From positions 744,001 through 808,000 of the forward strand of contig JAUSMV010000030.1 in assembly GCA_030645235.1 (NCBI GenBank): a DNA stretch of 64,000 nucleotides, in the 5' to 3' direction. The notes below the pieces were generated by a model. The model did not search any database, was not told the origin of the DNA, and saw only the letters and a list, made by a program, of their open reading frames with translations. Every line of letters begins with the position of its first letter. Position 1 is the stretch's first letter. Below are positions 6,876 to 38,667 of the stretch, in pieces. This DNA is from Parvibaculum sp. Its GTDB lineage: Bacteria > Pseudomonadota > Alphaproteobacteria > Parvibaculales > Parvibaculaceae. Both the position numbers and the translations under genes were made by a program.

Positions 6876-9560
6876 TCAGACGTCGCGCTCCATATTGGCC
6901 GACAGGGCCGACTGGGCGGCCGCCAGGCGGGCAATCGGCACACGATAGGGCGAGCAGGACACATAGGTCAGGCCCACTTCCTCACAGAAGGCGATGGAGG
7001 CCGGGTCGCCGCCATGCTCGCCGCAGATACCGAGCTTGATGTCGGGCCGCGTGATGCGGCCACGCTCGGCGGCAATGCGGACCAGCTCGCCCACCCCCTC
7101 GGTGTCGAGTGAGACAAAGGGGTCCTGCGAGATGACTTTCTTGGAGATGTAATCATTGATGAAACTGGCCGAGTCATCGCGGCTGATACCATAGGTCGTT
7201 TGAGTTAAGTCATTGGTACCAAAAGAGAAAAACTCAGCCGATTCGGCAATTTGGCGGGCCAGAAGCGCCGCACGGGGCAACTCGATCATGGTGCCGATGT
7301 GGTAGCTAAGCTTGGCGTTCTGCTCTTTTTCGACAGCTCCGGCCACTGCCACGATCTTGGCTTTGAGCATATCAAGCTCGGCCTTCATCGCGACAAGCGG
7401 GATCATGATCTCAGGGATCACGGCCTCGCCGGTCTCTTTCGCCGCCTCAAGGGCGGCTTCAAAGATGGCACGGGCCTGCATTTCGTAGATTTCGGGATAG
7501 GTAATGCCAAGACGGCAACCGCGATGACCGAGCATGGGATTGAACTCATGCAGGTCCGAGACGCGGCGCTCAAGCTTGCCTGCCTCAATGCCGGTTGTCT
7601 GCGCCACCAGTTCAATCTCTTCCGGCGTATTGGGCAGGAACTCATGGAGCGGCGGGTCGAGCAGACGGATTGTGACCGGCAAGCCCTTCATAATGACAAA
7701 AAGCTGGCGGAAGTCGTCGCGCTGCATCGGCAGAATCTTGGCCAAAGGCGCGCGGCGGCCCGCCTCGTCGTCAGCCAAGATCATCTGGCGGACGGCGACA
7801 ATGCGGGTTTCATCGAAAAACATGTGTTCAGTGCGACAAAGGCCGATGCCTTCCGCGCCGAATTTGCGGGCCGTGGCCGCATCAAGCGGCGTTTCCGCAT
7901 TGGTGCGGACTTTCATACGGCGATAGCTGTCGGCCCAGCTCATAAGCTTGGCAAAATCGCCCGACAGCTCCGGCTGGAGCATCGGCACTTCACCTTTGAT
8001 GACCTGACCCGTCGAGCCGTCCACCGTGATGATGTCGCCCTTTTTGATCGTCTGGCCCATCACCGTGAAGTGCTCGGCCTTGTAATCAATGCGGATGGAG
8101 CCGACGCCCGAGACGCAGGGACGCCCCATACCGCGCGCGACGACCGCCGCATGGCTCGTCATGCCGCCGCGTGTCGTGAGAATCGCGACAGCAGAATGCA
8201 TGCCGTGAATGTCCTCAGGCGAGGTTTCGATACGCACGAGAACGACATTGCGGCCCTCGGCCTTGGCGGCCGCGGCTTCGTCGGATGAAAAGATCACTTC
8301 GCCCGACGCCGCACCGGGGGAGGCAGGCAAGCCAGACGCAATCACTTCGCGCGCTGCATCAGGATCAAGTGTCGGATGCAGCAACTGATCGAGCGAGGCG
8401 GGATCAACACGCAGCACCGCCTGCTTTTCCGTGATCAGACCTTCAGCGGCCATTTCAACGGCAATCTTCAGCGCCGCTTTCGCCGTGCGTTTGCCCGCGC
8501 GCGTCTGGAGCATCCAGAGCTTGCCGCTTTGCACGGTGAACTCAACGTCCTGCATATCGGCATAGTGCTTTTCGAGCCGCGCGAAATTGGCGAGCAGCTC
8601 GGCATAGACCACCGGCATCGCTTCTTCCATCGAGGGCTTTTTGTCATTGGCTTCGAGGCGCGCAACCTTCGTCAGCGATTGCGGTGTGCGGATACCGGCC
8701 ACTACGTCCTCGCCCTGCGCGTTCACAAGGAACTCGCCATAGATCGCACGTTCGCCCGTTGACGGGTTACGCGTGAAGGCCACGCCCGTCGCCGACGTCT
8801 CGCCCATATTGCCGAAGACCATGGCCTGCACATTGACGGCCGTACCCCAGCTTTCGGGAATGTTATGCAAGCGGCGATAGGTTTCCGCGCGCTGATTGCG
8901 CCATGAACCGAAGACGGCGCTGATCGCGCCCCAAAGCTGCTCATGCACATCCTGCGGGAAAGGCTTGCCGAGTTCCTCCTGCACGATGGCTTTGTAACGA
9001 CCAATGAGGTCGCGCCAATCATCGGCTTTCAACTCGGTATCGAGGTTCAGCTCATGCTCTTCTTTGTAATATTCGAGTACTTCCTCGAAATGATGATGGT
9101 CAACACCCAGCACCACGTCTGAGTACATCTGGATAAAACGGCGATAACTATCGAAAGCAAAACGCTCATCATTGGCGCGCGAGGCGAGGCCCTGCACTGT
9201 CTCATCGTTCAGACCGAGGTTCAGCACCGTGTCCATCATGCCCGGCATTGAGGCACGCGCACCTGAACGGACCGAGACGAGCAGCGGGTTCACCTTATCG
9301 CCAAATGTCGCACCAACCGTCTTGCCGATCGAGGCAAGGGCCACGTCAACCTGGCCGGCAAGATCAGCCGGGTACTGACGATCATTGTCATAATAGGCCG
9401 TGCAAAGTTCGGTGGTGATCGTAAAGCCCGGGGGGACAGGCAGACCAAGGTTTGACATCTCGGCCAGGTTCGCACCCTTGCCGCCCAGCAAATTGCGCAT
9501 CGACGCCGCGCCCTCCGCCTTGCCGTCACCGAAGGAATAGACCCATTTCTGTTCAGCCAT
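6876..9560 (-). CDS. ppdK: Pyruvate, phosphate dikinase
   Basis: 894 aa; LLGGKGANLAEM, ILTTRGGMTSHAAVVARGMGRPCV, GTNDLTQTTYGISRDD, ICGEHGGDPASI. Confidence 0.97.
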   Translation of the reverse strand: MAEQKWVYSFGDGKAEGAASMRNLLGGKGANLAEMSNLGLPVPPGFTITTELCTAYYDNDRQYPADLAGQVDVALASIGKTVGATFGDKVNPLLVSVRSGARASMPGMMDTVLNLGLNDETVQGLASRANDERFAFDSYRRFIQMYSDVVLGVDHHHFEEVLEYYKEEHELNLDTELKADDWRDLIGRYKAIVQEELGKPFPQDVHEQLWGAISAVFGSWRNQRAETYRRLHNIPESWGTAVNVQAMVFGNMGETSATGVAFTRNPSTGERAIYGEFLVNAQGEDVVAGIRTPQSLTKVARLEANDKKPSMEEAMPVVYAELLANFARLEKHYADMQDVEFTVQSGKLWMLQTRAGKRTAKAALKIAVEMAAEGLITEKQAVLRVDPASLDQLLHPTLDPDAAREVIASGLPASPGAASGEVIFSSDEAAAAKAEGRNVVLVRIETSPEDIHGMHSAVAILTTRGGMTSHAAVVARGMGRPCVSGVGSIRIDYKAEHFTVMGQTIKKGDIITVDGSTGQVIKGEVPMLQPELSGDFAKLMSWADSYRRMKVRTNAETPLDAATARKFGAEGIGLCRTEHMFFDETRIVAVRQMILADDEAGRRAPLAKILPMQRDDFRQLFVIMKGLPVTIRLLDPPLHEFLPNTPEEIELVAQTTGIEAGKLERRVSDLHEFNPMLGHRGCRLGITYPEIYEMQARAIFEAALEAAKETGEAVIPEIMIPLVAMKAELDMLKAKIVAVAGAVEKEQNAKLSYHIGTMIELPRAALLARQIAESAEFFSFGTNDLTQTTYGISRDDSASFINDYISKKVISQDPFVSLDTEGVGELVRIAAERGRITRPDIKLGICGEHGGDPASIAFCEEVGLTYVSCSPYRVPIARLAAAQSALSANMERDV

Positions 9561-9603
9561 AGCTCACGCCTTTGTTGGCAGTACCAATTTATCTACTTAC
9601 ATT

Positions 9604-9690
9604 CGTCATGCGCGGGCTTGACCCGCGTATCCACGTCTTTGCCTCAAAAGAAGGAAGGCGTGGATGGCCGGATCAAGTCCGGCCATGACG
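9604..9690. repeat. Palindromic intergenic repeat unit
   Basis: CGTCATGCGCGGGCTTGACCCGCGTATCCACG ... CGTGGATGGCCGGATCAAGTCCGGCCATGACG: outer inverted arms with two internal hairpins. Confidence 0.7.
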
Positions 9691-9711
9691 GTCCTGTTCT
9701 TGGCCAGAGCC

Positions 9712-11901
9712 TCAGCCCTCAACCTTCGAGAAATCCGCCACCGTATGAAGCGCCGCGCGGATCTGCGCGAGCAACTTCAGGCGATTCTCACGGAACCCTT
9801 CGTCATTGACCTTTACATGTTCAAAGAAGGCATCTACCGGCGCGCGCAATTGCGCAAGAGCGCCCATTGCCGCAGCGAAATCCTCTTTCGTCACAGCGGC
9901 CTTTGCCTCTTTCGACGCCACTTCAATGGCATCAAACAAAGCCTGTTCTTCCGGCAACGCGCCCCGATCCGGCACACCGTCAAACGACTTGTCGTCCTTC
10001 TTCTCTTCAATCTTGAGAATATTGACCGCGCGCTTGTAACCGGTGAGCAGATTCGCACCGTCATCGGTTGAGAGGAAAGCCGACAGCGCCTCAACGCGCT
10101 TCACGATGAGCACGAGATCGTCTTGACCTTCGAGCGCGAAGACGGCATCGACGAGATCGTGCCGCGCACCGCGATCACGGAGATAGACTTTCAGACGGTC
10201 AGCGAAGAAGTCCCAAAGTTGCCTAATTTGAGAAAATGCCAATTCAGCTTCTTCATCAGCCCTATCTCTGATGCCCGATTCAATTTTATCCAGCGCATTT
10301 ACAATAACGTCTGCTTCAAATAACGATTTCGCCTTATCAAGAATATTTTCAATATCCGCAAAACCAGCAGCAGCCAAACGTGCTGTGGAATGCCATGTCA
10401 ACGGATGCCAAATTAAATTTCTTTGAGCAACCCGTACATCACTCTCCAAAAGAATTCTGACTATGCCTAGTGCTGCACGACGAAGGGCAAACGGATCTTT
10501 CGATCCCGTCGGCTTTTCATCAATCACCCAAAATCCCGTCAGCGTGTCAATCTTATCCGCCAGCGCGACGACCTTCCCGAGAGGCGTTGACGGCACAGCA
10601 TCCGTCGGCCCCAGCGGCGAATAATGTTCCGCAATGGCGTCGGCGATGTCATCTCCCAAGCCATCTTCGCGCGCATAGTAAGCACCCATCAGGCCCTGCA
10701 ATTCAGGAAACTCGCCAACCATGCCGGACGTAAGATCGGCCTTCGCCAATTCGCCAGCGACCTGCGCCTTGTCAGCATCCGCGTCAGGTACAAAGGCCGC
10801 GAGTTCACGCGCGAGTTTACCAATACGCATCGCCTTGTCATGCACCGAACCAAGCTTCGCGTGGAACACGACCTCTTTCAGTTTCGGCAAGCGGCTCGTC
10901 AGCGTGTGTTTCTTATCCTGATCCCAAAGGAACCGCGCATCGGAGAAGCGCGCGCGCAGCACGCGTTCGTTGCCGTTGACGATGGCTTTGCCGCCGTCGG
11001 TCGCCACAAGATTTGCCACCACGATGAAACGCGGCGCGAGCTTGCCTGCCGCATCGGTCAGCGCAAAATATTTCTGGTTCGCGCGCATCGTGCTGGTCAG
11101 CACTTCCTGCGGCACGGTCATAAAGTCATCGTCGATCTTACCGATGAGCGGCACAGGCCATTCAACAAGTCCAGCCACTTCTCTGAGTAGCGCTTTATCC
11201 TCAAACAATTTGAGGCCCGCTTCTGCCGCGAGCTTCTGCGCGCCTTCATCGATGATTTTTTCGCGCGTATAAGGATCAAGTATGACGAATGCCTTTTCGA
11301 GCTTCGCCTGATAGTCAGCAAAGGATGAAACGTTAAACGCATCCGGTGCCATGAAGCGATGGCCGCGTGTTTTGTCGCCCGACTTGATGCCTTCAATCTC
11401 AAACGGCACAACTTTACCGCCGAACAGACACACAATCGAATGCAGCGGACGCACCCAGCGCAACGTGCCCGTGCCCCAGCGCATCGATTTCGGCCAGGGG
11501 AAATTGCGGATCACATCGGGCACAATCTCCGCAATGAGATCAGCCGTCGCGCGGCCTGCGCGTTCCGTCACGGCGATATAGAAGGCACCCTTCTTATCGT
11601 CCTGCACTGTCGCCTGATCGATTGACGTGAGACCCGCCGCGCGCAGGAAGCCGTCAATCGCCTGTTGCGGCGCGCCGACTTTCGGGCCTTTGCGTTCTTC
11701 TTTAACGTCCGGCGTTTTCTCCGGCAACCCGTCGATCACCAACGTCAGACGACGCGGTGTCGCGTAACCACGCGCATTCAAATTCAGGATGCCCGCATCG
11801 GCGAGCCCTTGTTGCACGCGCATACCCAAGTCATATGCGGCTTGTTTCTGCATCCGCGCGGGAATTTCTTCGGAGAAGAGTTCGAGGAGAAGCTCGCTCA
11901 T
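9712..11901 (-). CDS. glyS: Glycine--tRNA ligase subunit beta
   Basis: [44 protein letters not shown]; glyQ immediately upstream. Confidence 0.95.
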
Positions 11902-22479: not shown

Positions 22480-23415
22480 ATGGGGCAAGCTACACGCCTC
22501 CCCGCATGGATCAATACGCCCAAGATGACGCATTTCGATGGTTCCGACGAAAATCTGACGCGCGAAGAAGCCTTTGCGCGTCTGTCTTTCTATGTCGAAA
22601 CCGGCGTCACCGACGTTTTCACCGAGACAGTTAATAATCGCTATCAACTGGACCCGAACCCGGCCTCCAAGAATGACGCGAGTGCCGCCCGTTCTGTGAC
22701 AGAGCAAGAATCATCGGGCCGCGCCCTCAATCGTGGCGCATCGCAAAATCCGCCGCCCAGAGCCGTCGCAGACAGCCAAACATTTGCGCTGGATGACAGC
22801 GCCGCCATTGCCACCGCAACGGCCATCGCCGCTCAGGCGACGACGCGCGACGCGCTGCGTGAAGCAGTCAGCACATTTGAAGGATGCACCCTGCGCGCCA
22901 CCGCCAAGAACCTCGTCTTCGATGACGGCAACCCGCATGCGCGCCTGATGTTCATAGGGGAAGCACCCGGCAAAGACGAAGACCTTGAAGGCGTGCCCTT
23001 TGCCGGAGAAGCCGGACGGCTGTTTGACCGGATGCTCGCCTCCATCGGTCTTGATCGCACAGAGGTCTATCTCGCCAACATGCTGCCATGGCGTCCGCCG
23101 GGCAACCGCCCGCCGACGGCCGGAGAGCAGGCCATGTGCCTGCCTTTCATCACCCGCCAGATTGAACTCTGCCAGCCCGACATTCTTGTGTGTGTCGGCG
23201 GCGTCTCCGCCAAGCAATTACTTGGCATAGACACGCCCCTGCCACGTCTCAGAGGCGAGTGGAAAGACTATGCCTATGGCAACGGCGCGCGGATTCCGGC
23301 GCTGACGATTTTCTCGCCCGACTACCTGTTGCGTCACCCGGCGCATAAGCGCCTTGCGTGGCGCGACCTGCTGTCGCTGAAAGCGCGGATGGGGGAGTTG
23401 GGGGCGCGGGGCTAG
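22480..23415 (+). CDS. Uracil-DNA glycosylase (UdgX/type 4-5-like family)
   Basis: ARLMFIGEAPGKDEDLEGVPFAGEAGRLFDRML, ANMLPWRPPGNRPPTAGE. Confidence 0.92.
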   Translation: MGQATRLPAWINTPKMTHFDGSDENLTREEAFARLSFYVETGVTDVFTETVNNRYQLDPNPASKNDASAARSVTEQESSGRALNRGASQNPPPRAVADSQTFALDDSAAIATATAIAAQATTRDALREAVSTFEGCTLRATAKNLVFDDGNPHARLMFIGEAPGKDEDLEGVPFAGEAGRLFDRMLASIGLDRTEVYLANMLPWRPPGNRPPTAGEQAMCLPFITRQIELCQPDILVCVGGVSAKQLLGIDTPLPRLRGEWKDYAYGNGARIPALTIFSPDYLLRHPAHKRLAWRDLLSLKARMGELGARG

Positions 23416-23504
23416 GCGGTAAACTCCGTGTGCGGAGTGTCTTAAAGGGTGAGGCTCAGTGTCGGCTTTGGGACAGGAGCGGACATCAAAAAGTGGAACA
23501 GAAG

Positions 23505-24320
23505 TCAAGCGGAATGACCAAACGTGAGATCAAGCAGTTTCTGCACCGCCTTGGCCTTGATGAAGTAAATTAGCCCGTTTCCAGACCGATTAATTACTCC
23601 GGCGAACTTCAGGACCACCTCGTGGTCCTGAAGTACTGTCGCAAAGACTGGACCACCTGAGAGTCCATTAGGATCGAAATCCATCGGCGACAGGAGCCTG
23701 CATAGCCCTAAGTCAAGGTCCGCGGGTTGCGCCTGCGGCTCACAGGTCATGGACCGGATCACGAGACCCACGTGGTTCTCATCGACGATGTTGTATTTTT
23801 GGTCAACGAACGGGCAACCATATGCGAGGTATGCAACCACATCATCTTTATCACGCAGGAAGTCATTCGAATTTAGCCGGAAGAAGCGCTCCACTAGTTC
23901 ACGATTGGAGGTCGCCTGCGGCGTGAAATCGAATACATATAAATCTTCCGCATCGCCCGGCGGCACGATGTCAGTGGCGCGAAAGCGCGTGAATCCTGCT
24001 GAGCTTAGGTAGCTGCTCCTCTCAGGCACCACGATTCCAACATCTTGCGCCGAAGAATCTTTCACTTGGTGAGCGGTGCAAACAAGGAAATTAGTGCCGC
24101 GATAGTGCAAGCCGGTCGCCGATCCGATCAATTGAACTTCGTACCCATCGACGTTGGTGAATACCACTAGGTTCTGGCCGAACTTGTTGAGGCGAGACTG
24201 AAGCGCGCTTGCAGGAACGAAAAGGTCATGGACTTTCACACTGGTCCATATTTTCCGTCCGACCACCGTTTCGATTTCGGCCCGTCGATTAAGGAGTAGA
24301 ATCAAATTGTTCATCGACAT
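23505..24320 (-). CDS. Trypsin-like serine protease, no evident signal peptide
   Basis: Putative triad context: CTAHQV (His), EDLYVFDF (Asp), NGLSGGPVF (Ser). Likely start MSMNNL at 24320; the ORF extends to 24422. Confidence 0.65.
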   Translation of the reverse strand: MSMNNLILLLNRRAEIETVVGRKIWTSVKVHDLFVPASALQSRLNKFGQNLVVFTNVDGYEVQLIGSATGLHYRGTNFLVCTAHQVKDSSAQDVGIVVPERSSYLSSAGFTRFRATDIVPPGDAEDLYVFDFTPQATSNRELVERFFRLNSNDFLRDKDDVVAYLAYGCPFVDQKYNIVDENHVGLVIRSMTCEPQAQPADLDLGLCRLLSPMDFDPNGLSGGPVFATVLQDHEVVLKFAGVINRSGNGLIYFIKAKAVQKLLDLTFGHSA

Positions 24321-24442
24321 AACCCCAATACTATATGAGATTGAAATGCCGCGCCTTCTCAGCAGCAGACGGATGAAATAGGTCGGATGCACCGAGATAA
24401 GTGCCGAATGTTGTGCTGACAAGGAGAGGGTCGAAACAGACT

Positions 24443-25429
24443 ATGAGTGAAGCGGCTCAAAAGCTTCCCCAAGATCGGCAGATATGGCTTCGAGCATTCT
24501 ATGGGTTCAACCCTGAAGACGCAGGCTACCTCGGCTTCACCCATGAACCTCAGCGCGAATCTGTACTCAAAAATATGCACGATGGCGACTTGGTGCTGAT
24601 CTATGGTGCCGTAGATGATCTGACAGATACATTACTAAAGCGGCAAGCTTTGGGTTTTCTGGAAGTCACAGGGGAGCATTGCACAGACCGAGAACGCTCT
24701 GCACAATCGGCAATTAATTGGAAGGTCGATCATGGCTTCATTGATAGGTGGACGTTTGGAGTAAAAATCCGCCGCGCATGGCGGGTCAAGAACCGAGTCC
24801 ATATCAAGACGATTGCACCTGAAGCGTACAAAAATAAGAACCGGTTTGAGCGAACGACACGTGCATTGCTCCTAACACCCGAAGAGCGCGAACGCGCACT
24901 TAGTCACCCCGTGTATCAGGTCAACGTGTACGGAGAGCCACAGATTCCGGAAGTTAATCTAGCCAATGGGGTAATGGGCGAAATGCTCAAACCTTCGCGG
25001 GGCATTGTCCCTGCATTCGGTACCCGAGCGGCGACATATGAAGATGGCGAAAATATCCTGTATCTGATGACATTGGAAGGTGGCGCAGAAGTGCTACTCG
25101 GTCGAACCGGTCCTCATGTTGGTAAGATATTGGCGAAGGTTGGACGTTCAAATAATCTTAGGCGGAGACTAGGCGAGATTAATAGCGGCTTCCCTGAAAG
25201 AGCCATATTTCGCTGGAAACTCATTGCCCATCAGACTTTTCCGGATGCCTCGACAGCCCATCGATACGAAACTGAGCTGAAGGCGCTATTGCATGCCCAG
25301 TTCACCTCGCAAGGAGGCGAGTTCTTTACTGCAGATCAGCGCGAAATCAATAAAGAGTTCATAAGATTCTGTGCATCAAAAATACCAAAAATAAAAGGAG
25401 CGCCTGGAAAAGCGACTGGTGTGAGATAA
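24443..25429 (+). CDS. PUA/EVE-like N-terminal region fused to a C-terminal GIY-YIG (T5orf172/MUG113-like) nuclease domain
   Basis: N-terminus YLGFTHEPQRESVLKNMHDGDLVLIYGAV; C-terminus ILYLM...AKVGRSNNLRRRLGEINSGFP...HRYETELKALLHAQFTSQGGEFF matches the GIY-YIG/T5orf172 layout. AAGGAGAGG lies upstream of ATG 24443. Confidence 0.65.
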   Translation: MSEAAQKLPQDRQIWLRAFYGFNPEDAGYLGFTHEPQRESVLKNMHDGDLVLIYGAVDDLTDTLLKRQALGFLEVTGEHCTDRERSAQSAINWKVDHGFIDRWTFGVKIRRAWRVKNRVHIKTIAPEAYKNKNRFERTTRALLLTPEERERALSHPVYQVNVYGEPQIPEVNLANGVMGEMLKPSRGIVPAFGTRAATYEDGENILYLMTLEGGAEVLLGRTGPHVGKILAKVGRSNNLRRRLGEINSGFPERAIFRWKLIAHQTFPDASTAHRYETELKALLHAQFTSQGGEFFTADQREINKEFIRFCASKIPKIKGAPGKATGVR

Positions 25430-25507
25430 AAGAGAAGAATTGGCGCGCGTGTCTGAAAGGTTTCTGCACCGCGAGGAGCCGGACGCCCGCCAACCTAGGA
25501 CTGAGCT

Positions 25508-26461
25508 ATGGCCGAGGCACACAACCATCACTACGTCCCTCAAGGGTACTTGCGCGGATTTGCTGCGGGAGTGGGGAGGCAAGCAAAGCTGCATGTCATT
25601 GACATAAAAGACCGACGAGCGTTTTCGACTCTGGTGCGCAATGTGGCGTCACGACGTGACTTTAATCGCCTAGATATCGATGGGGTCGAACCGAATGCAC
25701 TGGAAAAAGCGTACGGTCAGTTCGAGAGTCAAGCATCGGAGGCTATCAAACGGATCGCGACTTCGAGAACTTTCGTCGGCGAAGATCGTGTCATCATTAT
25801 TAACTTGCTCGCGATGTTAATTATTCGCAACCCACGGATGCGAGATAACTGGGCGGGTTTCATGGACCGCCTATGGCGTCTCACTGGCGATATGATGGTC
25901 GCAAAGAGAGAAAGATGGGAAGCTATCACGCGTCAAATGAAGAATGCAGGATATGATATAAACGAAAATGTTAGTTACGAGCAGATGCGCGACTTCGTGC
26001 GAGGGGGCGAGTACGATATTGTCACCGACCGCCATGTCCACATCCGTTTGGAGATCGAGACGCTAGACAAAGTGACCCGCATGCTCGCTTCTCGAAACTG
26101 GCGGCTCAGCATTGTTCCAGACCACTTGGACGATCTAATCACCTGCGACCATCCGGTCTGCCTGATCTCTACGGTGAAACGGCCTGATGGACTTCTGGGC
26201 GGTGTTGGCTACGGCATGACACACACCGCCGTGCTCTTCCCGCTCACGCGCAGGATTTCGTTGTGGGGTTCCTTCGAAGATCGAGAGGAGGTGGTTGAGA
26301 TGCGCAGGGAACAAGTGGCATTTTTCAACACTCACCTAATAAGGAACGCCGAGAGACAAATATACGCTCTGAATGACGATTTTGACTACGTTTGGAACCG
26401 CCAGCTACACCGAGGAACCACGTTCTTGGAGGATTTAAAAAGGGGACCGCACGAAACCTAG
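25508..26461 (+). CDS. DUF4238 domain-containing protein
   Basis: N-terminal HNHHYVPQGYLRGFA motif, LAMLIIRNPRMRD, and later TCDHPV...FPLTRRISLWGSF, typical of DUF4238. Confidence 0.82.
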   Translation: MAEAHNHHYVPQGYLRGFAAGVGRQAKLHVIDIKDRRAFSTLVRNVASRRDFNRLDIDGVEPNALEKAYGQFESQASEAIKRIATSRTFVGEDRVIIINLLAMLIIRNPRMRDNWAGFMDRLWRLTGDMMVAKRERWEAITRQMKNAGYDINENVSYEQMRDFVRGGEYDIVTDRHVHIRLEIETLDKVTRMLASRNWRLSIVPDHLDDLITCDHPVCLISTVKRPDGLLGGVGYGMTHTAVLFPLTRRISLWGSFEDREEVVEMRREQVAFFNTHLIRNAERQIYALNDDFDYVWNRQLHRGTTFLEDLKRGPHET

Positions 26462-26495
26462 GTGCGCACGCTGTTCAACCGCCAATTTGGTTTAG

Positions 26496-26539
26496 GCGCC
26501 CTCTTCGACCGTCTCGCTGCCCTCATAAGCGTTCATGGC
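26496..26539 (-). pseudogene. Relic fragment of an SDR gene (AMNAYEGSETVEEGA)
   Basis: 39/44 identical to 28197-28240 inside the intact SDR gene 28109-28864, same strand and reading frame. Confidence 0.75.
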
Positions 26540-26559
26540 CCCGACAGACCGGTTTCGTG

Positions 26560-27273
26560 TCAGGCACCGAAGCCGCCGTCGATGGTCAGCATCGAGCCTG
26601 TGATCATCGCAGCGTGCGGGCTGGCGACGTAGGCGACAAGTTCCGCGATTTCCTCAGGGTGAGCGTGACGCTTGATGGCCATGAAGCTGTGCATTGCTTT
26701 AGCCATCGGGCCGTCAGCCGGGTTCATATCGCTATCGGTCGGACCTGGCTGGATCGCGTTGACCGTGATGCGGCGGTCGCCAAAGTCCCGGGCCAGCCCG
26801 CGAACCATTCCTTGTAAACCCGATTTGGTCAGCGAATAAGCCGAAAGGCCGGGAAAGGGAATGCGATCACCGTGCACTGAGCCGATCACAATGATGCGAC
26901 CGTCTGCATTCATGTGCCGGGCCCCTTCGACGGCAGCGTGATAGGGCGCGCGGAGGTTTACGTCGAACAAACGGTCAACGGCGTCTGGTTCCAGCGATAG
27001 CGGATCGCCGACAATACCCATACCTGCATTGATGATCAAAATATCCAGCGGGCCGCGCGCGGCTATAGCTTCGGTTTGCGCCGCCCTGTCGGCGCTGTCG
27101 GCCTTGACGATCTCTGCGCCGGACTGCTGCCCCAAGGTCCGGGCCGCCGCCTCGGAACCGAAATAAGTGAAAGCAACCTTGGCGCCTTCACTTGCAAAGC
27201 GGCGAACGATCGCAGCTCCGATTCCGCGACTGCCGCCGAGGACAAGAATGTTCTTTCTTGAGATTTCAGACAC
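26560..27273 (-). CDS. SDR family oxidoreductase
   Basis: NILVLGGSRGIGAAIVRRFASEGAKV, IINAGMG, YSLTKSGLQGM, SMLTIDGGFGA. Confidence 0.9.
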   Translation of the reverse strand: MSEISRKNILVLGGSRGIGAAIVRRFASEGAKVAFTYFGSEAAARTLGQQSGAEIVKADSADRAAQTEAIAARGPLDILIINAGMGIVGDPLSLEPDAVDRLFDVNLRAPYHAAVEGARHMNADGRIIVIGSVHGDRIPFPGLSAYSLTKSGLQGMVRGLARDFGDRRITVNAIQPGPTDSDMNPADGPMAKAMHSFMAIKRHAHPEEIAELVAYVASPHAAMITGSMLTIDGGFGA

Positions 27274-27326
27274 GTAGCCTCCTTAAACCTATTCAGTAAA
27301 CGTTGCGAAGATGCGGAGATCTGCCA

Positions 27327-28046
27327 TCACATCTCAGCCACCATGCGTTTGATGATGTTGGGTGCGATCCGCAGCAACATCGGGAGCTGTCGGGTTGCGC
27401 CGGGCATGGCCATGGGTTGGTGGTTCGCTAATGCCTTGAGGGTGATTTTTGCCACTTTGGCGGGTGCCATCTTTTTCCCCGGAAGGTTTGCGTTCATGGG
27501 CGTGTCTACAGCAGGAGGAAGCAACTCGAGGATATGCGTTCCTCTGGGGGCGAGTTGCCGACGCAGTCCTTCTGCAAAGGCATGTAGCCCCGCCTTAACG
27601 GCGCCATAGGTCGGGGCGCGGGTCGGAGAAACGAGAGCGAAGCCCGACGTGACAAACACGATTGCAGCCATGGCAGGCCAGCGGTTCAGCGCCGCGCCCG
27701 TCAGCTGAATTGGTGCTGTCAGATTAAGAGCGACTTCCTGTTCGAGATCTTGTGTGGCATCCGCGCCGTTCGTGAAGTTTCTCTCGACGAACGTGCCGGC
27801 ATTGTTGATCAGAATATCTAACCGGCCGAAGCGTTCGGCGACGGCATTCAGCATGGCGATCCTTGCGGCGTCGATGGTGACGTCGGCCTGAATAGCCAAT
27901 GCTTTCGGATGCGTGCGGGAGAAGCGCTCAAGCGCTGCCTCTGAGCGCCCGCAAACCGCAACATCAGCACCCTGACTTATGAAGGCGTCGGCAAGGGCCA
28001 TGCCGATACCTGACGTGCCGCCGGTTATGAGGACAACTTGTTTCAT
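27327..28046 (-). CDS. SDR family oxidoreductase
   Basis: VVLITGGTSGIGMALADAF, LINNAGTF, YGAVKAGLHAFAEGLR; start trimmed to MKQVVLI. Confidence 0.9.
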   Translation of the reverse strand: MKQVVLITGGTSGIGMALADAFISQGADVAVCGRSEAALERFSRTHPKALAIQADVTIDAARIAMLNAVAERFGRLDILINNAGTFVERNFTNGADATQDLEQEVALNLTAPIQLTGAALNRWPAMAAIVFVTSGFALVSPTRAPTYGAVKAGLHAFAEGLRRQLAPRGTHILELLPPAVDTPMNANLPGKKMAPAKVAKITLKALANHQPMAMPGATRQLPMLLRIAPNIIKRMVAEM

Positions 28047-28108
28047 CTTGCCGTCAGCTCCTTGTTTGCGAGGGATATGTTTCTTCAATGATTTTGTGGC
28101 TGTTCAGA

Positions 28109-28864
28109 TCACCAGGGGATGGTGCCGAACGTGGCATGCGTGAAGGTTCCCGTCGGTGCGTCCTTGCCGAGCAGCGCCACGCGCACCGCCTCGCGGGCGC
28201 CCTCTTCAACTGTCTCGGTGCCCTCATAGCCGTTCATGGCGGTTCTGGTGAAACCCGGCGAGACGGCGTTGACGCTGATCCCCTCCGCCTCGAGTTCGAT
28301 TGCCATGGCAAGGGTCAGGGCGTTGAGGGCGGTTTTTGACGCCGCATAGAGCGGACTGAAATGCGAGCGGTAGGGGAGCGACCGATCGGAAGCGATGGTC
28401 AGCGATCCGCCGCCGCTGGACACATTGACGATGCGTGCGCCCGGCGTTGCCCGTAGCAACGGAAGCATTGCCTGATAGACGGCCAGAACGCCGAACACGT
28501 TGGTCTCCCAGACCGCCCGCATCTCATCAAGGGGCACCACGCTGGCGCGTTTTGTCTTCGCATATTCGAGCACTGAGCCGGGATGGTCGCCGGTGGTCAT
28601 GATGGCGGCGTTCTGGATCAGCACATCAAGACGACCGAATGTCTTGTGCACTTGTGCCGCCGCTGCCGTGATCGAGGCCTGATCCGTGACGTCGAGCTGG
28701 AGCGCATGGGCGTCGGGGCCAAGCTCTTTGGCCGCTGTCTCGCCGCGCTCAGGGTTGCGCGCGCCAACGAGGACAGTGAAACCACTGGCCATCAGATCCT
28801 TTGCGATCTGGTAGCCAATTCCCTGATTGGCGCCGGTGATCAGGGCGACGGGCTTGTCCTGCAT
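28109..28864 (-). CDS. SDR family oxidoreductase
   Basis: VALITGANQGIGYQIAKDLMASGF, NVSSGGGSL, YAASKTALNAL. Confidence 0.92.
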   Translation of the reverse strand: MQDKPVALITGANQGIGYQIAKDLMASGFTVLVGARNPERGETAAKELGPDAHALQLDVTDQASITAAAAQVHKTFGRLDVLIQNAAIMTTGDHPGSVLEYAKTKRASVVPLDEMRAVWETNVFGVLAVYQAMLPLLRATPGARIVNVSSGGGSLTIASDRSLPYRSHFSPLYAASKTALNALTLAMAIELEAEGISVNAVSPGFTRTAMNGYEGTETVEEGAREAVRVALLGKDAPTGTFTHATFGTIPW

Positions 28865-28926
28865 GGTGATTTCCTGTTTGTTGAACGTGTTGTCAGTGAG
28901 GCCGCGCCGCGGTATGAAGCATCAAA

Positions 28927-28964
28927 CGGAGCATTGTTCCGATTATATACGGAGCAATGTTCCG
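28927..28964. promoter_or_regulatory. Tandem operator-like sites in the divergent SDR/TetR promoter region
   Basis: CGGAGCATTGTTCCG (28927-28941) and CGGAGCAATGTTCCG (28950-28964), 14/15 identical quasi-palindromes. Confidence 0.75.
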
Positions 28965-28989
28965 TTTAACAAGTGGGATATTGGCGTAA

Positions 28990-29619
28990 ATGTCGGGCGT
29001 GCGTTCAAAAGGCGATCAGGCCGAAACCGCTGCGGATACGGGCGGAGACCGGCGGCTGCGCGCCGACGCGAAACGCAGCATTGATGCCCTGATGCAGGCC
29101 GCGCGGGAGGTCTTTGCCAGTTCCGGGGTGGACGCGACCGTGCGCGAGATCGCCGAGCGGGCCGGTGTCGGCATGGGCACGCTTTACCGCCACTTCCCCC
29201 AACGCGCCGACCTGATCACCGCTGTTCTCCACAGCGAAATGGACGCCTGCTCGGACGCTGCGGCGACCCTTGCGGCCAAACATCCGCCCTTCGAAGCGCT
29301 GGCGGCCTGGATGCAGCGCTATGCGGACCTCGTCGGGACCAAGCGCGGACTGGCCAAGGCGCTCAACTCGGGAGACCCGGTGTTTGAAGGTTTGCTCACG
29401 CGCTTTGAGGAGCGGCTTCGCCCCGCCGTCCGGCCGCTTTTTGCAGCTGCGATTGTTGCCGGGGAGATCGAACCGGATACCGATGCCGACGAAATTCTCT
29501 GCGCCGTCTCCAGCCTGTGCATGTCCGCTTACGATGCGAAGCCTGAACATGCCCGACGCATGGTCGCGCTCTTCATCGACGGATTGCGTCGCCCCGTTAA
29601 GGGATCATCGTCTCACTGA
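28990..29619 (+). CDS. TetR/AcrR family transcriptional regulator
   Basis: N-terminal HTH: IDALMQAAREVFASSGVDATVREIAERAGVGMGTLYRHFPQRADLI. Confidence 0.93.
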   Translation: MSGVRSKGDQAETAADTGGDRRLRADAKRSIDALMQAAREVFASSGVDATVREIAERAGVGMGTLYRHFPQRADLITAVLHSEMDACSDAAATLAAKHPPFEALAAWMQRYADLVGTKRGLAKALNSGDPVFEGLLTRFEERLRPAVRPLFAAAIVAGEIEPDTDADEILCAVSSLCMSAYDAKPEHARRMVALFIDGLRRPVKGSSSH

Positions 29620-29695
29620 GGGGACCGGATCGGGGAGTATCCCGCCCCCCTCCCCCCATTAACCCAAAACCCAATTCCTTCGCAGTTGCAGCGAA

Positions 29696-31759
29696 TTGGG
29701 CGAATCAGCGCTTGGCATGACGGTCTTCGTGGCTAGAATGCAGCCCATGCACAGGGGGTCCGTTCCAAAAGGCGAAAGCTATTTGCGCCGCAGCTTGATT
29801 ATTGCTGCATCGCTGACGCTCGGCCTCGGCCTTGCGGGCGCCGCGCTTGCCGCCGCGCCCGTGCCGTTGCAATCACCACTCACAAAAACGGCCGGGGCCG
29901 CGCCCGCAAAGCGCGCCGCAAGTGTTCCGGCGCTCCGTCCCGCCATCATCGAGGCGCCTGCCGACGCAGCGGATGCAGCCGATGCAGCGGATGACGAAGC
30001 CATTGCCGCCCAAATGCCGCAGATGTATTCGCCGCTCTCGCCGCCCATCGCGAGTTCCATGCCGCAATCCGCGCCCCTTTCGGCGCGGGCTAAAATCTGG
30101 AGCCCTGAAGTTCTCAGCGGCGCTGACCGCGAACGGTACCTCAGGATTTTTGCCGCGCAGAAAAAAGGCAATTGGAAAGTTGCTGACAAGCAGATCGCCG
30201 CCCTCGCCGACAAGCGCCTCATGGGCTATGTGCTGTTCGAGCGCTATCTCCATCCGAAATACCGCACGACCTATTCAGAGCTGCGCGGCTGGATGGCGGA
30301 ATATTCCGACCTGCCGGACGCAACACGCATTTACAAACTCGCGCTGAAAAAGAAGACCCGCAAAGCCGCCGCGCCCGCGCGGCCGCAGGTGCGCAAGTTC
30401 CGTCAGCTCACCAGCAACAATTACAATGCCGAGGCCGATGACGGCGATGGCGCGGCGTTCTCGGAGCAGTTTGCCCGTGTCGATGAACGTGTTCGAGAGA
30501 TCGTTCGCAGCCAAAAGGCGCGCGATGCGCTGATCTATCTCAACCAGACCACCATCCGCCGCTCGCTTTCCGATGTTGAATATGACAAGGCGCGCGAGCG
30601 CGTCGCCGCGTCATACTTTATCGAGAATGACAATGAGAATGCCTATCTGACGGCGGACGAGATTGCGCGCGCCCATCCCCGCGACGTGCCCTTGGCCGAT
30701 TGGTATGCCGGTCTTGCCGCCTGGCGCCTTGAACGCTTTGACGATGCGGCGCGCCATTTTGAAAAGCTCGCACGCGCCAACTATGTGTCGGACTGGACGC
30801 GCGCGGCCGGTGGCTTCTGGGCCGCGCGCTCTTATCTCGCCGCCCGCGCGCCCGAACGTGTCACCGAGATGCTCGAACTCTCGTCTGACACGGGAGCAAC
30901 CTTCTACGGTCTCATTGCGTCGCGCCAGCTTGGCCGCGATCTGAAGATTGATTGGGTTGAACCGAGGCTCGATCAGGCGGGCTATGAAGCCCTTGTGCGC
31001 GATGCCGCCGTCGCGCGCGCTGTGGCGCTCGTGCAGATCGGTCGCCGCGATGCGGCGGAACAAGAGCTTGTCCGCGCGCATGGCTGGCTTGATCATTCGA
31101 CCGACGAGGCGCTCATTGCCCTTGCCGCCACGTTCAAACTGCCCGCCGTCGAGTTGCAGGCCGCCAGCAGCGCCGACCTGCCGCAGGCCCGGTTGCGCAA
31201 TGGTGCGATCGCGCTCAATGCCGGTCTCTATCCCGTCCCCAATTACAAACCGAAAAACGGGTTCCGTGTGGACCCCGCGCTCTTCTATGCCGTCATGCGT
31301 CAGGAGAGTAAGTTCCGCCCTGACGCCACCTCCGGTGCCGGTGCGCGCGGCCTCATGCAGATCATGCCGGCCACCGCCAGCCTCATTGCGTCCGACCGCA
31401 CGCTGGCCGGCGGCAACAAGGACAAGCTCCTTGATCCCTCGTTCAATCTCACGCTCGCCCAGAACTATATCGAAACGCTGATGGCGTCGGCGGAACCGCG
31501 CGGCAATCTCTTTATGCTGACGTCGGCCTATAATGGCGGGCCTGGCAATCTGTCGCGCTGGCTTGATGAGATCAATTTCAAAGGCGACCCGTTCCTCTTC
31601 ATCGAGAGCATTCCGGCCGCCGAGACACGCGCCTATATTGAGCGCGTCGTGATGAACTTCTGGATCTACCGCGCCCGCCTCGGCCAGACTTCAACCTCCC
31701 TCGCCGTCAGTGCCTCCGGCGACTGGCCCGTCTATGACGCATTTGAAACCCCGCGCTAA
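29696..31759 (+). CDS. Lytic transglycosylase (Slt-like)
   Basis: YAVMRQESKFRPDATSGAGARGLMQIMPATA ... TSAYNGGPGNLSRW. Confidence 0.93.
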   Translation: MGESALGMTVFVARMQPMHRGSVPKGESYLRRSLIIAASLTLGLGLAGAALAAAPVPLQSPLTKTAGAAPAKRAASVPALRPAIIEAPADAADAADAADDEAIAAQMPQMYSPLSPPIASSMPQSAPLSARAKIWSPEVLSGADRERYLRIFAAQKKGNWKVADKQIAALADKRLMGYVLFERYLHPKYRTTYSELRGWMAEYSDLPDATRIYKLALKKKTRKAAAPARPQVRKFRQLTSNNYNAEADDGDGAAFSEQFARVDERVREIVRSQKARDALIYLNQTTIRRSLSDVEYDKARERVAASYFIENDNENAYLTADEIARAHPRDVPLADWYAGLAAWRLERFDDAARHFEKLARANYVSDWTRAAGGFWAARSYLAARAPERVTEMLELSSDTGATFYGLIASRQLGRDLKIDWVEPRLDQAGYEALVRDAAVARAVALVQIGRRDAAEQELVRAHGWLDHSTDEALIALAATFKLPAVELQAASSADLPQARLRNGAIALNAGLYPVPNYKPKNGFRVDPALFYAVMRQESKFRPDATSGAGARGLMQIMPATASLIASDRTLAGGNKDKLLDPSFNLTLAQNYIETLMASAEPRGNLFMLTSAYNGGPGNLSRWLDEINFKGDPFLFIESIPAAETRAYIERVVMNFWIYRARLGQTSTSLAVSASGDWPVYDAFETPR

Positions 31760-37551: not shown

Positions 37552-38667
<1,116 letters not shown>

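Follow-up and report, generated by a model that had tools for sequence, protein, structure and literature searches.

Three genes of interest lie in a 64,000-nucleotide stretch of Parvibaculum DNA (the whole stretch is called the window here). They are a trypsin-like serine protease gene, a divergent gene whose predicted product joins an EVE reader domain to a GIY-YIG nuclease domain (EVE-GIY), and a DUF4238 gene that follows EVE-GIY on the same strand after 78 bp (Table 1). The three ORFs are real, and the original prediction, made from the sequence alone, had their coordinates and strands right. The protease ORF is open to a TTG at 24422 with ATG 24314 as the probable start (269 aa), and for EVE-GIY the likelier start is ATG 24443 (328 aa). 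No sigma-70-like consensus site was found in the divergent intergenic region.

Table 1. Features of the window discussed in the text
Feature	Position	Strand	Evidence or remark
UDG gene, family-4	22480-23415		TIGR00758, 1e-51
Trypsin-like (His/Asp/Ser) serine protease, unclassified family	23505..24422	-	triad motifs
Intergenic region, divergent, 128 bp	24315..24442	.	between protease and EVE-GIY starts
EVE-GIY (predicted EVE reader + T5orf172-type GIY-YIG nuclease)	ORF 24401-25429, gene 24443..25429	+	Pfam, AF2, Foldseek
EVE/PUA-like reader domain	24482..24922 (about residues 14-160)	+	AF2 model, Foldseek, conserved aromatics
GIY-YIG nuclease domain	25052..25333 (about residues 204-297)	+	invariant residues; PDB UPF0213/GIY-YIG match
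DUF4238 protein	25508..26461	+	Pfam PF14022, 5e-40; PADLOC DUF4238-Pers, 4.3e-61
SDR fragment, 45 bp	26495..26539	-	89% identity to internal piece of SDR gene 28109-28864
SDR genes (three) and divergent TetR regulator	26560..29619 (TetR 28990-29619)	- (SDR), + (TetR)	accessory
SLT-domain gene	29696-31759		right of variable stretch
CcrM-type adenine methyltransferase, RAMA domain	37561-38667		PADLOC orphan methyltransferase, 1.9e-198

A variable site next to the UDG gene

The three genes are accessory DNA, as had been proposed. The site is empty in 19 of 20 Parvibaculum relatives, where only 151-312 bp separate the UDG gene from the SLT-gene homologue, and the window has 6.3 kb there, holding the three genes, the three SDR genes and the TetR gene. 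The protease, EVE-GIY and DUF4238 genes have 52.1 %, 49.5 % and 52.2 % G+C, which is below the 58.0 % of the window and the 60-62 % of the UDG and SDR genes on either side. The local drop in G+C reported earlier, 21 of 60 nucleotides at 25921-25980, is confirmed, and all three genes are low in G+C.

The comparison with the 20 relatives places the variable stretch at 23416 to 29695, so that it extends past 26461. Both flanks named in the original prediction, the UDG gene and the SDR cluster, are present, but the SDR cluster does not serve as a boundary, since it is missing here in the relatives. The spot itself is variable, because 19 of the 20 relatives are empty and one genome (G003, L069, about 7472-9923) carries another insert beside the UDG gene, of 2.45 kb, with VOC-, TetR- and GST-like ORFs recognized by eye. 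Six loci (L074-L077, L079, L085) also have inserts of roughly 5 kb after the SLT gene, in the interval from the 29696 homologue to the 31822 homologue. The surroundings of the UDG and SLT genes are thus a variable region in Parvibaculum. From the SDR fragment directly after the DUF4238 gene it seems that the three-gene stretch is rearranged at its right-hand edge and was cut there into an older SDR region. The SDR/TetR block was probably acquired separately from the three genes, since the G+C of the SDR genes is normal. No tRNA, long flanking direct repeats or integrase-like ORF was found at the island.

The EVE-GIY protein and its relatives

In Pfam the EVE-GIY protein matches T5orf172 and MUG113, both of the GIY-YIG superfamily, over the cut-off, and EVE under it (0.0034). 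The AlphaFold model, built on a 25-sequence alignment, has a mean pLDDT of 84 and shows two domains with a low-confidence linker (residues 176-198) between them. The best PDB matches found with Foldseek are the EVE proteins 1zce, 2gbs, 2g2x and 2eve, human THYN1 with 5mC DNA (5j3e) and Sm-McrB-N of S. marinus (6n0s). The first seven matches are all EVE or PUA-like (prob 0.94-1.00) with modest E-values (best 2.8e-3) and with TM-scores kept low by aligning the two-domain model as a whole, and UPF0213, a GIY-YIG protein, appears lower. In the same alignment the GIY-YIG catalytic set (Y207, K232-x-G234, R242 and E276) is invariant, and so are the EVE aromatics F22, Y54, W103 and W113, with F19 almost so. 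The invariant GIY-YIG residues fit an active nuclease. The main matches in a sequence search of the PDB were to influenza haemagglutinin, which we took as chance (E about 0.1), and there was no PADLOC match. The proposal that the middle gene encodes a modified-base reader plus nuclease is therefore supported by its predicted structure and conserved catalytic residues, as well as by the restriction context of its relatives.

We collected these relatives from the genome collection (31), plasmids (2), whole-genome matches (2) and a viral contig (1), and 35 loci were used for the context count after one partial match (L067) was left out. The 35 loci hold slightly fewer independent genes, because L002 (G019) and L046 (P. 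indicum) are one gene found twice with identical scores. This gene is the second copy in the genus, where EVE-GIY was found in two of the 27 members searched, and it has 38% identity and lies at another place. Within the fetched stretches, which reach up to 10 kb per side, hsdM was found in 15 of the 35 loci, hsdR in 14, DUF6998 in eight and Mrr in six. None of the 20 control loci has any of these genes, a weak control because these are one syntenic locus in 20 relatives rather than independent draws. The PADLOC candidates PDC-S18 and PDC-S21 also adjoin EVE-GIY relatives, as does an MmeI-type enzyme in one locus (L053).

Least expected among the side results was to find close relatives of the EVE-GIY gene as part of a recurrent type I restriction operon. 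Six loci (L037-L041 and L089), from Paracoccus, Hoeflea, Fluviibacterium, Fertoeibacter, Zongyanglinia and a viral contig, share a gene order that starts with hsdR, hsdM and hsdS, continues with one or two variable genes and EVE-GIY, and ends with an AAA_15/DUF3696 ATPase gene followed by a gene for a protein of unknown family. The variable genes encode DUF4917 (PDC-S21), DUF5655 (PDC-S18) or, by eye, a further GIY-YIG-like protein. The EVE-GIY proteins of the six loci are among the closest to that of the window (56-64% identity). Overall, the closest relatives (52-64% identity) are in contexts unlike the window's, mostly type I R-M operons, so the EVE-GIY gene of the window is an orphan member of a clade often found in restriction operons. 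Possibly, the arrangement with hsdR, hsdM, hsdS, EVE-GIY and the ATPase is a type I system able to restrict modified DNA as well. The conserved protein 3' of the ATPase has about 310 aa (L038:12669-13601, L089:7683-8615), with no Pfam match for the L037 copy and no PADLOC match for the L038 copy.

EVE/GIY-YIG fusions were described in 2020 as predicted modification-dependent REases (PMC7641849), with the same two domains per chain and the same predicted role as here. In the part of that paper available to us, stand-alone EVE and PIN-GNAT-EVE proteins do adjoin type I R-M systems, whereas the link to type I R-M operons that we see in the relatives is not named for EVE-GIY. VcaM4I (PMC7897488) likewise has an EVE reader and a nuclease in a single protein, but its nuclease is HNH rather than GIY-YIG, and action on modified DNA has been shown for VcaM4I only. 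CMoRE (PD-T4-3), a GIY-YIG type IV enzyme characterised in 2026 (PMC12923530), is also one protein that combines a GIY-YIG nuclease with a modified-base sensor. However, its nuclease is N-terminal with a GIYxY-YIG motif and its sensor has a different fold, whereas the window protein has the reversed order (EVE, then GIY-YIG), an EVE sensor and the motif LYLM...KVG. With these differences and no PADLOC match, we did not assign the window protein to CMoRE.

The DUF4238 and protease genes

Pfam PF14022 covers the DUF4238 protein over its full length (profile 1-281/281), and the PADLOC DUF4238-Pers match spans residues 1-296 (profile 1-297/309). A DUF4238 protein encoded in a P2-phage hotspot was by itself reported to give strong T7 resistance (Rousset et al. 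2022, PMC9122126). That protein of P2-like prophages, itself a single gene, is of the same family as the window protein by the full-length PADLOC match, so DUF4238 stands as a single-gene anti-phage family, and the window protein is a member with predicted activity of this kind. Two of the three components, the EVE/GIY-YIG fusion and DUF4238, are thus of already described kinds. Of 385 genomes sampled in the class, 26 have the family, which was also found on 19 plasmids and on 14 viral contigs, the members on viral contigs having about 33% identity to the window protein. A single-protein scan of the viral contigs gave no match. On the plasmids and viral contigs DUF4238 occurs without EVE-GIY or the protease, and both were absent from the six plasmid neighbourhoods that we read, the flanks of most DUF4238 loci being short (about 1.5-6 kb). 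For the structure predicted from ten sequences (pLDDT 84), Foldseek found no counterpart in the PDB copy searched (best E 0.63). The conserved residues H7, H8, R50, E66, E73, R107 and D214 could be a candidate active site.

The minus-strand gene is, as had been suggested, a divergent trypsin-like serine protease judging from its motifs. CTAHQ (H82), DLYVFDF (D124) and GLSGG (S219) are invariant in four homologues, the window protein among them, and the triad follows the trypsin order (His, Asp, Ser) with a GxSGG motif. Nothing significant was found for it in Pfam, NCBIfam, PHROGs, PADLOC, the PDB, plasmids or phages, an AbiEi match in PADLOC (0.016) being dismissed as chance, and the viral contigs gave no match with the protease alone or with a two-row protease alignment. 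We found no protease homologue in 60 relatives and no convincing match in 384 other genomes of the class. One match came from 398 genomes of the phylum and two more from 298 genomes of an order. Weak matches in three further genomes (G127, G740 and G061, E 7e-4 to 5e-3) were rejected as relatives. The family is thus very rare, and outside the window it was found in three genomes, each time as a lone gene, with 45% (G849), 33% (G744, with one in-frame TAG) and 25% (G888) identity to the window protein. In G849 (L137) the gene is at 8852-9652, about 120 bp from a tRNA-Thr (9769-9844), in G744 a serine recombinase and a tRNA-Ser lie nearby, and in G888 it is surrounded by metabolic genes. No tie of the protease to defence was found.

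One system or independent genes

The original prediction was that the three genes may form one undescribed defence system, and it proposed a search for co-occurrence in which families never found together elsewhere would refute this. We ran profiles of all three families over every locus fetched, in a mostly alphaproteobacterial sample. Outside the window's own locus, no two of the three families occur together in any of the 36 EVE-GIY, 42 DUF4238 and three protease settings, so that within this sample the proposal of a single system is not supported and the refuting outcome named for it was observed. The expected neighbourhood of defence genes was found in part: EVE-GIY relatives do lie beside restriction genes, but the protease showed no such link. 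We consider it probable, at about three in four, that the islet holds an independent type IV restriction enzyme, EVE-GIY, and a DUF4238 defence gene beside an unrelated accessory protease.

Two features count against such independence. EVE-GIY and DUF4238, on one strand and so close to each other, could be co-transcribed, and the low G+C common to all three genes makes their arrival together possible. The same spacing and the similarly low G+C of these two genes, both of them defence-related, would suit a two-gene operon that forms one defence system with the protease as a bystander. We regard this as unlikely, since the 36 other EVE-GIY loci and the 42 other DUF4238 loci have none in common and DUF4238 alone protects in the published assay (PMC9122126). 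A three-gene system with a base reader joined to a nuclease, a DUF4238 partner and the protease as regulator or effector would agree with the compact, low-G+C and accessory locus, and trypsin-like proteases do act in defence (PMC12799240). It is nevertheless very unlikely given that the families are never together elsewhere in the sample, that the closest EVE-GIY relatives are in other contexts, and that the protease relatives are lone genes.

The adjacency of a protease gene and a nuclease gene also recalls the Hachiman and AVAST pairs (PMC12799240), and by this precedent the protease might cleave and activate EVE-GIY as a pro-nuclease, as in HamM/HamA or Avs1a/Avs1b. In those pairs, however, the nuclease is MBL-fold and encoded upstream of a protease that is fused to a sensor, whereas here a lone, unfused protease of 269 aa is divergent from a GIY-YIG nuclease, so the genes were not assigned to the HamM/Avs1 type. 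Aligned with 24 relatives in which the protease is missing, the window EVE-GIY also shows no additional insertion. With no recurring pair, no fusion and no gating insertion, we set this explanation aside as very unlikely. Similarly, it is highly improbable that we are dealing with a rarely assembled system, a protease-controlled type IV restriction module, in which the stand-alone protease gates the EVE-GIY nuclease or DUF4238. If true, this would make the protease the founder of a new, unfused class of defence proteases. Some EVE/PUA-like domains bind RNA, and S. marinus McrB-N, one of the Foldseek matches, has been compared to PUA-like RNA-binding proteins, so the EVE domain might instead recognize a modified RNA base, making the protein a nuclease or toxin directed at RNA and not a restriction enzyme for DNA. 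This is quite unlikely, as the EVE-GIY relatives adjoin DNA restriction-modification genes and the best fold matches include THYN1 with 5mC DNA.

Under the preferred reading of independent genes, EVE-GIY would be a type IV restriction enzyme with a single component. Judging from the EVE-HNH enzyme VcaM4I and from THYN1, its EVE domain may hold a modified base, probably a 5-substituted cytosine, of incoming phage or plasmid DNA, and the C-terminal GIY-YIG domain would cut that DNA. The DUF4238 protein would be a separate single-gene anti-phage protein in the Parvibaculum host, and the divergently transcribed protease an unrelated accessory gene. Host DNA would be spared, its only known marks here being adenine methylation. 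The CcrM-like gene of the window and N6_Mtase matches elsewhere in the same genome point to adenine marks, so that a reader of cytosine modification would leave host DNA alone. Two N6_Mtase genes lie close together on another contig of this genome (C20:3368-8726, L153), with just 26-27% identity to the HsdM linked to EVE-GIY relatives.

These results strike the three-gene candidate from the list of possible systems and contribute a predicted, testable EVE-GIY restriction enzyme and a DUF4238 protein from Parvibaculum. They also suggest that the type I R-M operon with EVE-GIY and the ATPase may be able to restrict modified as well as unmodified phage DNA.
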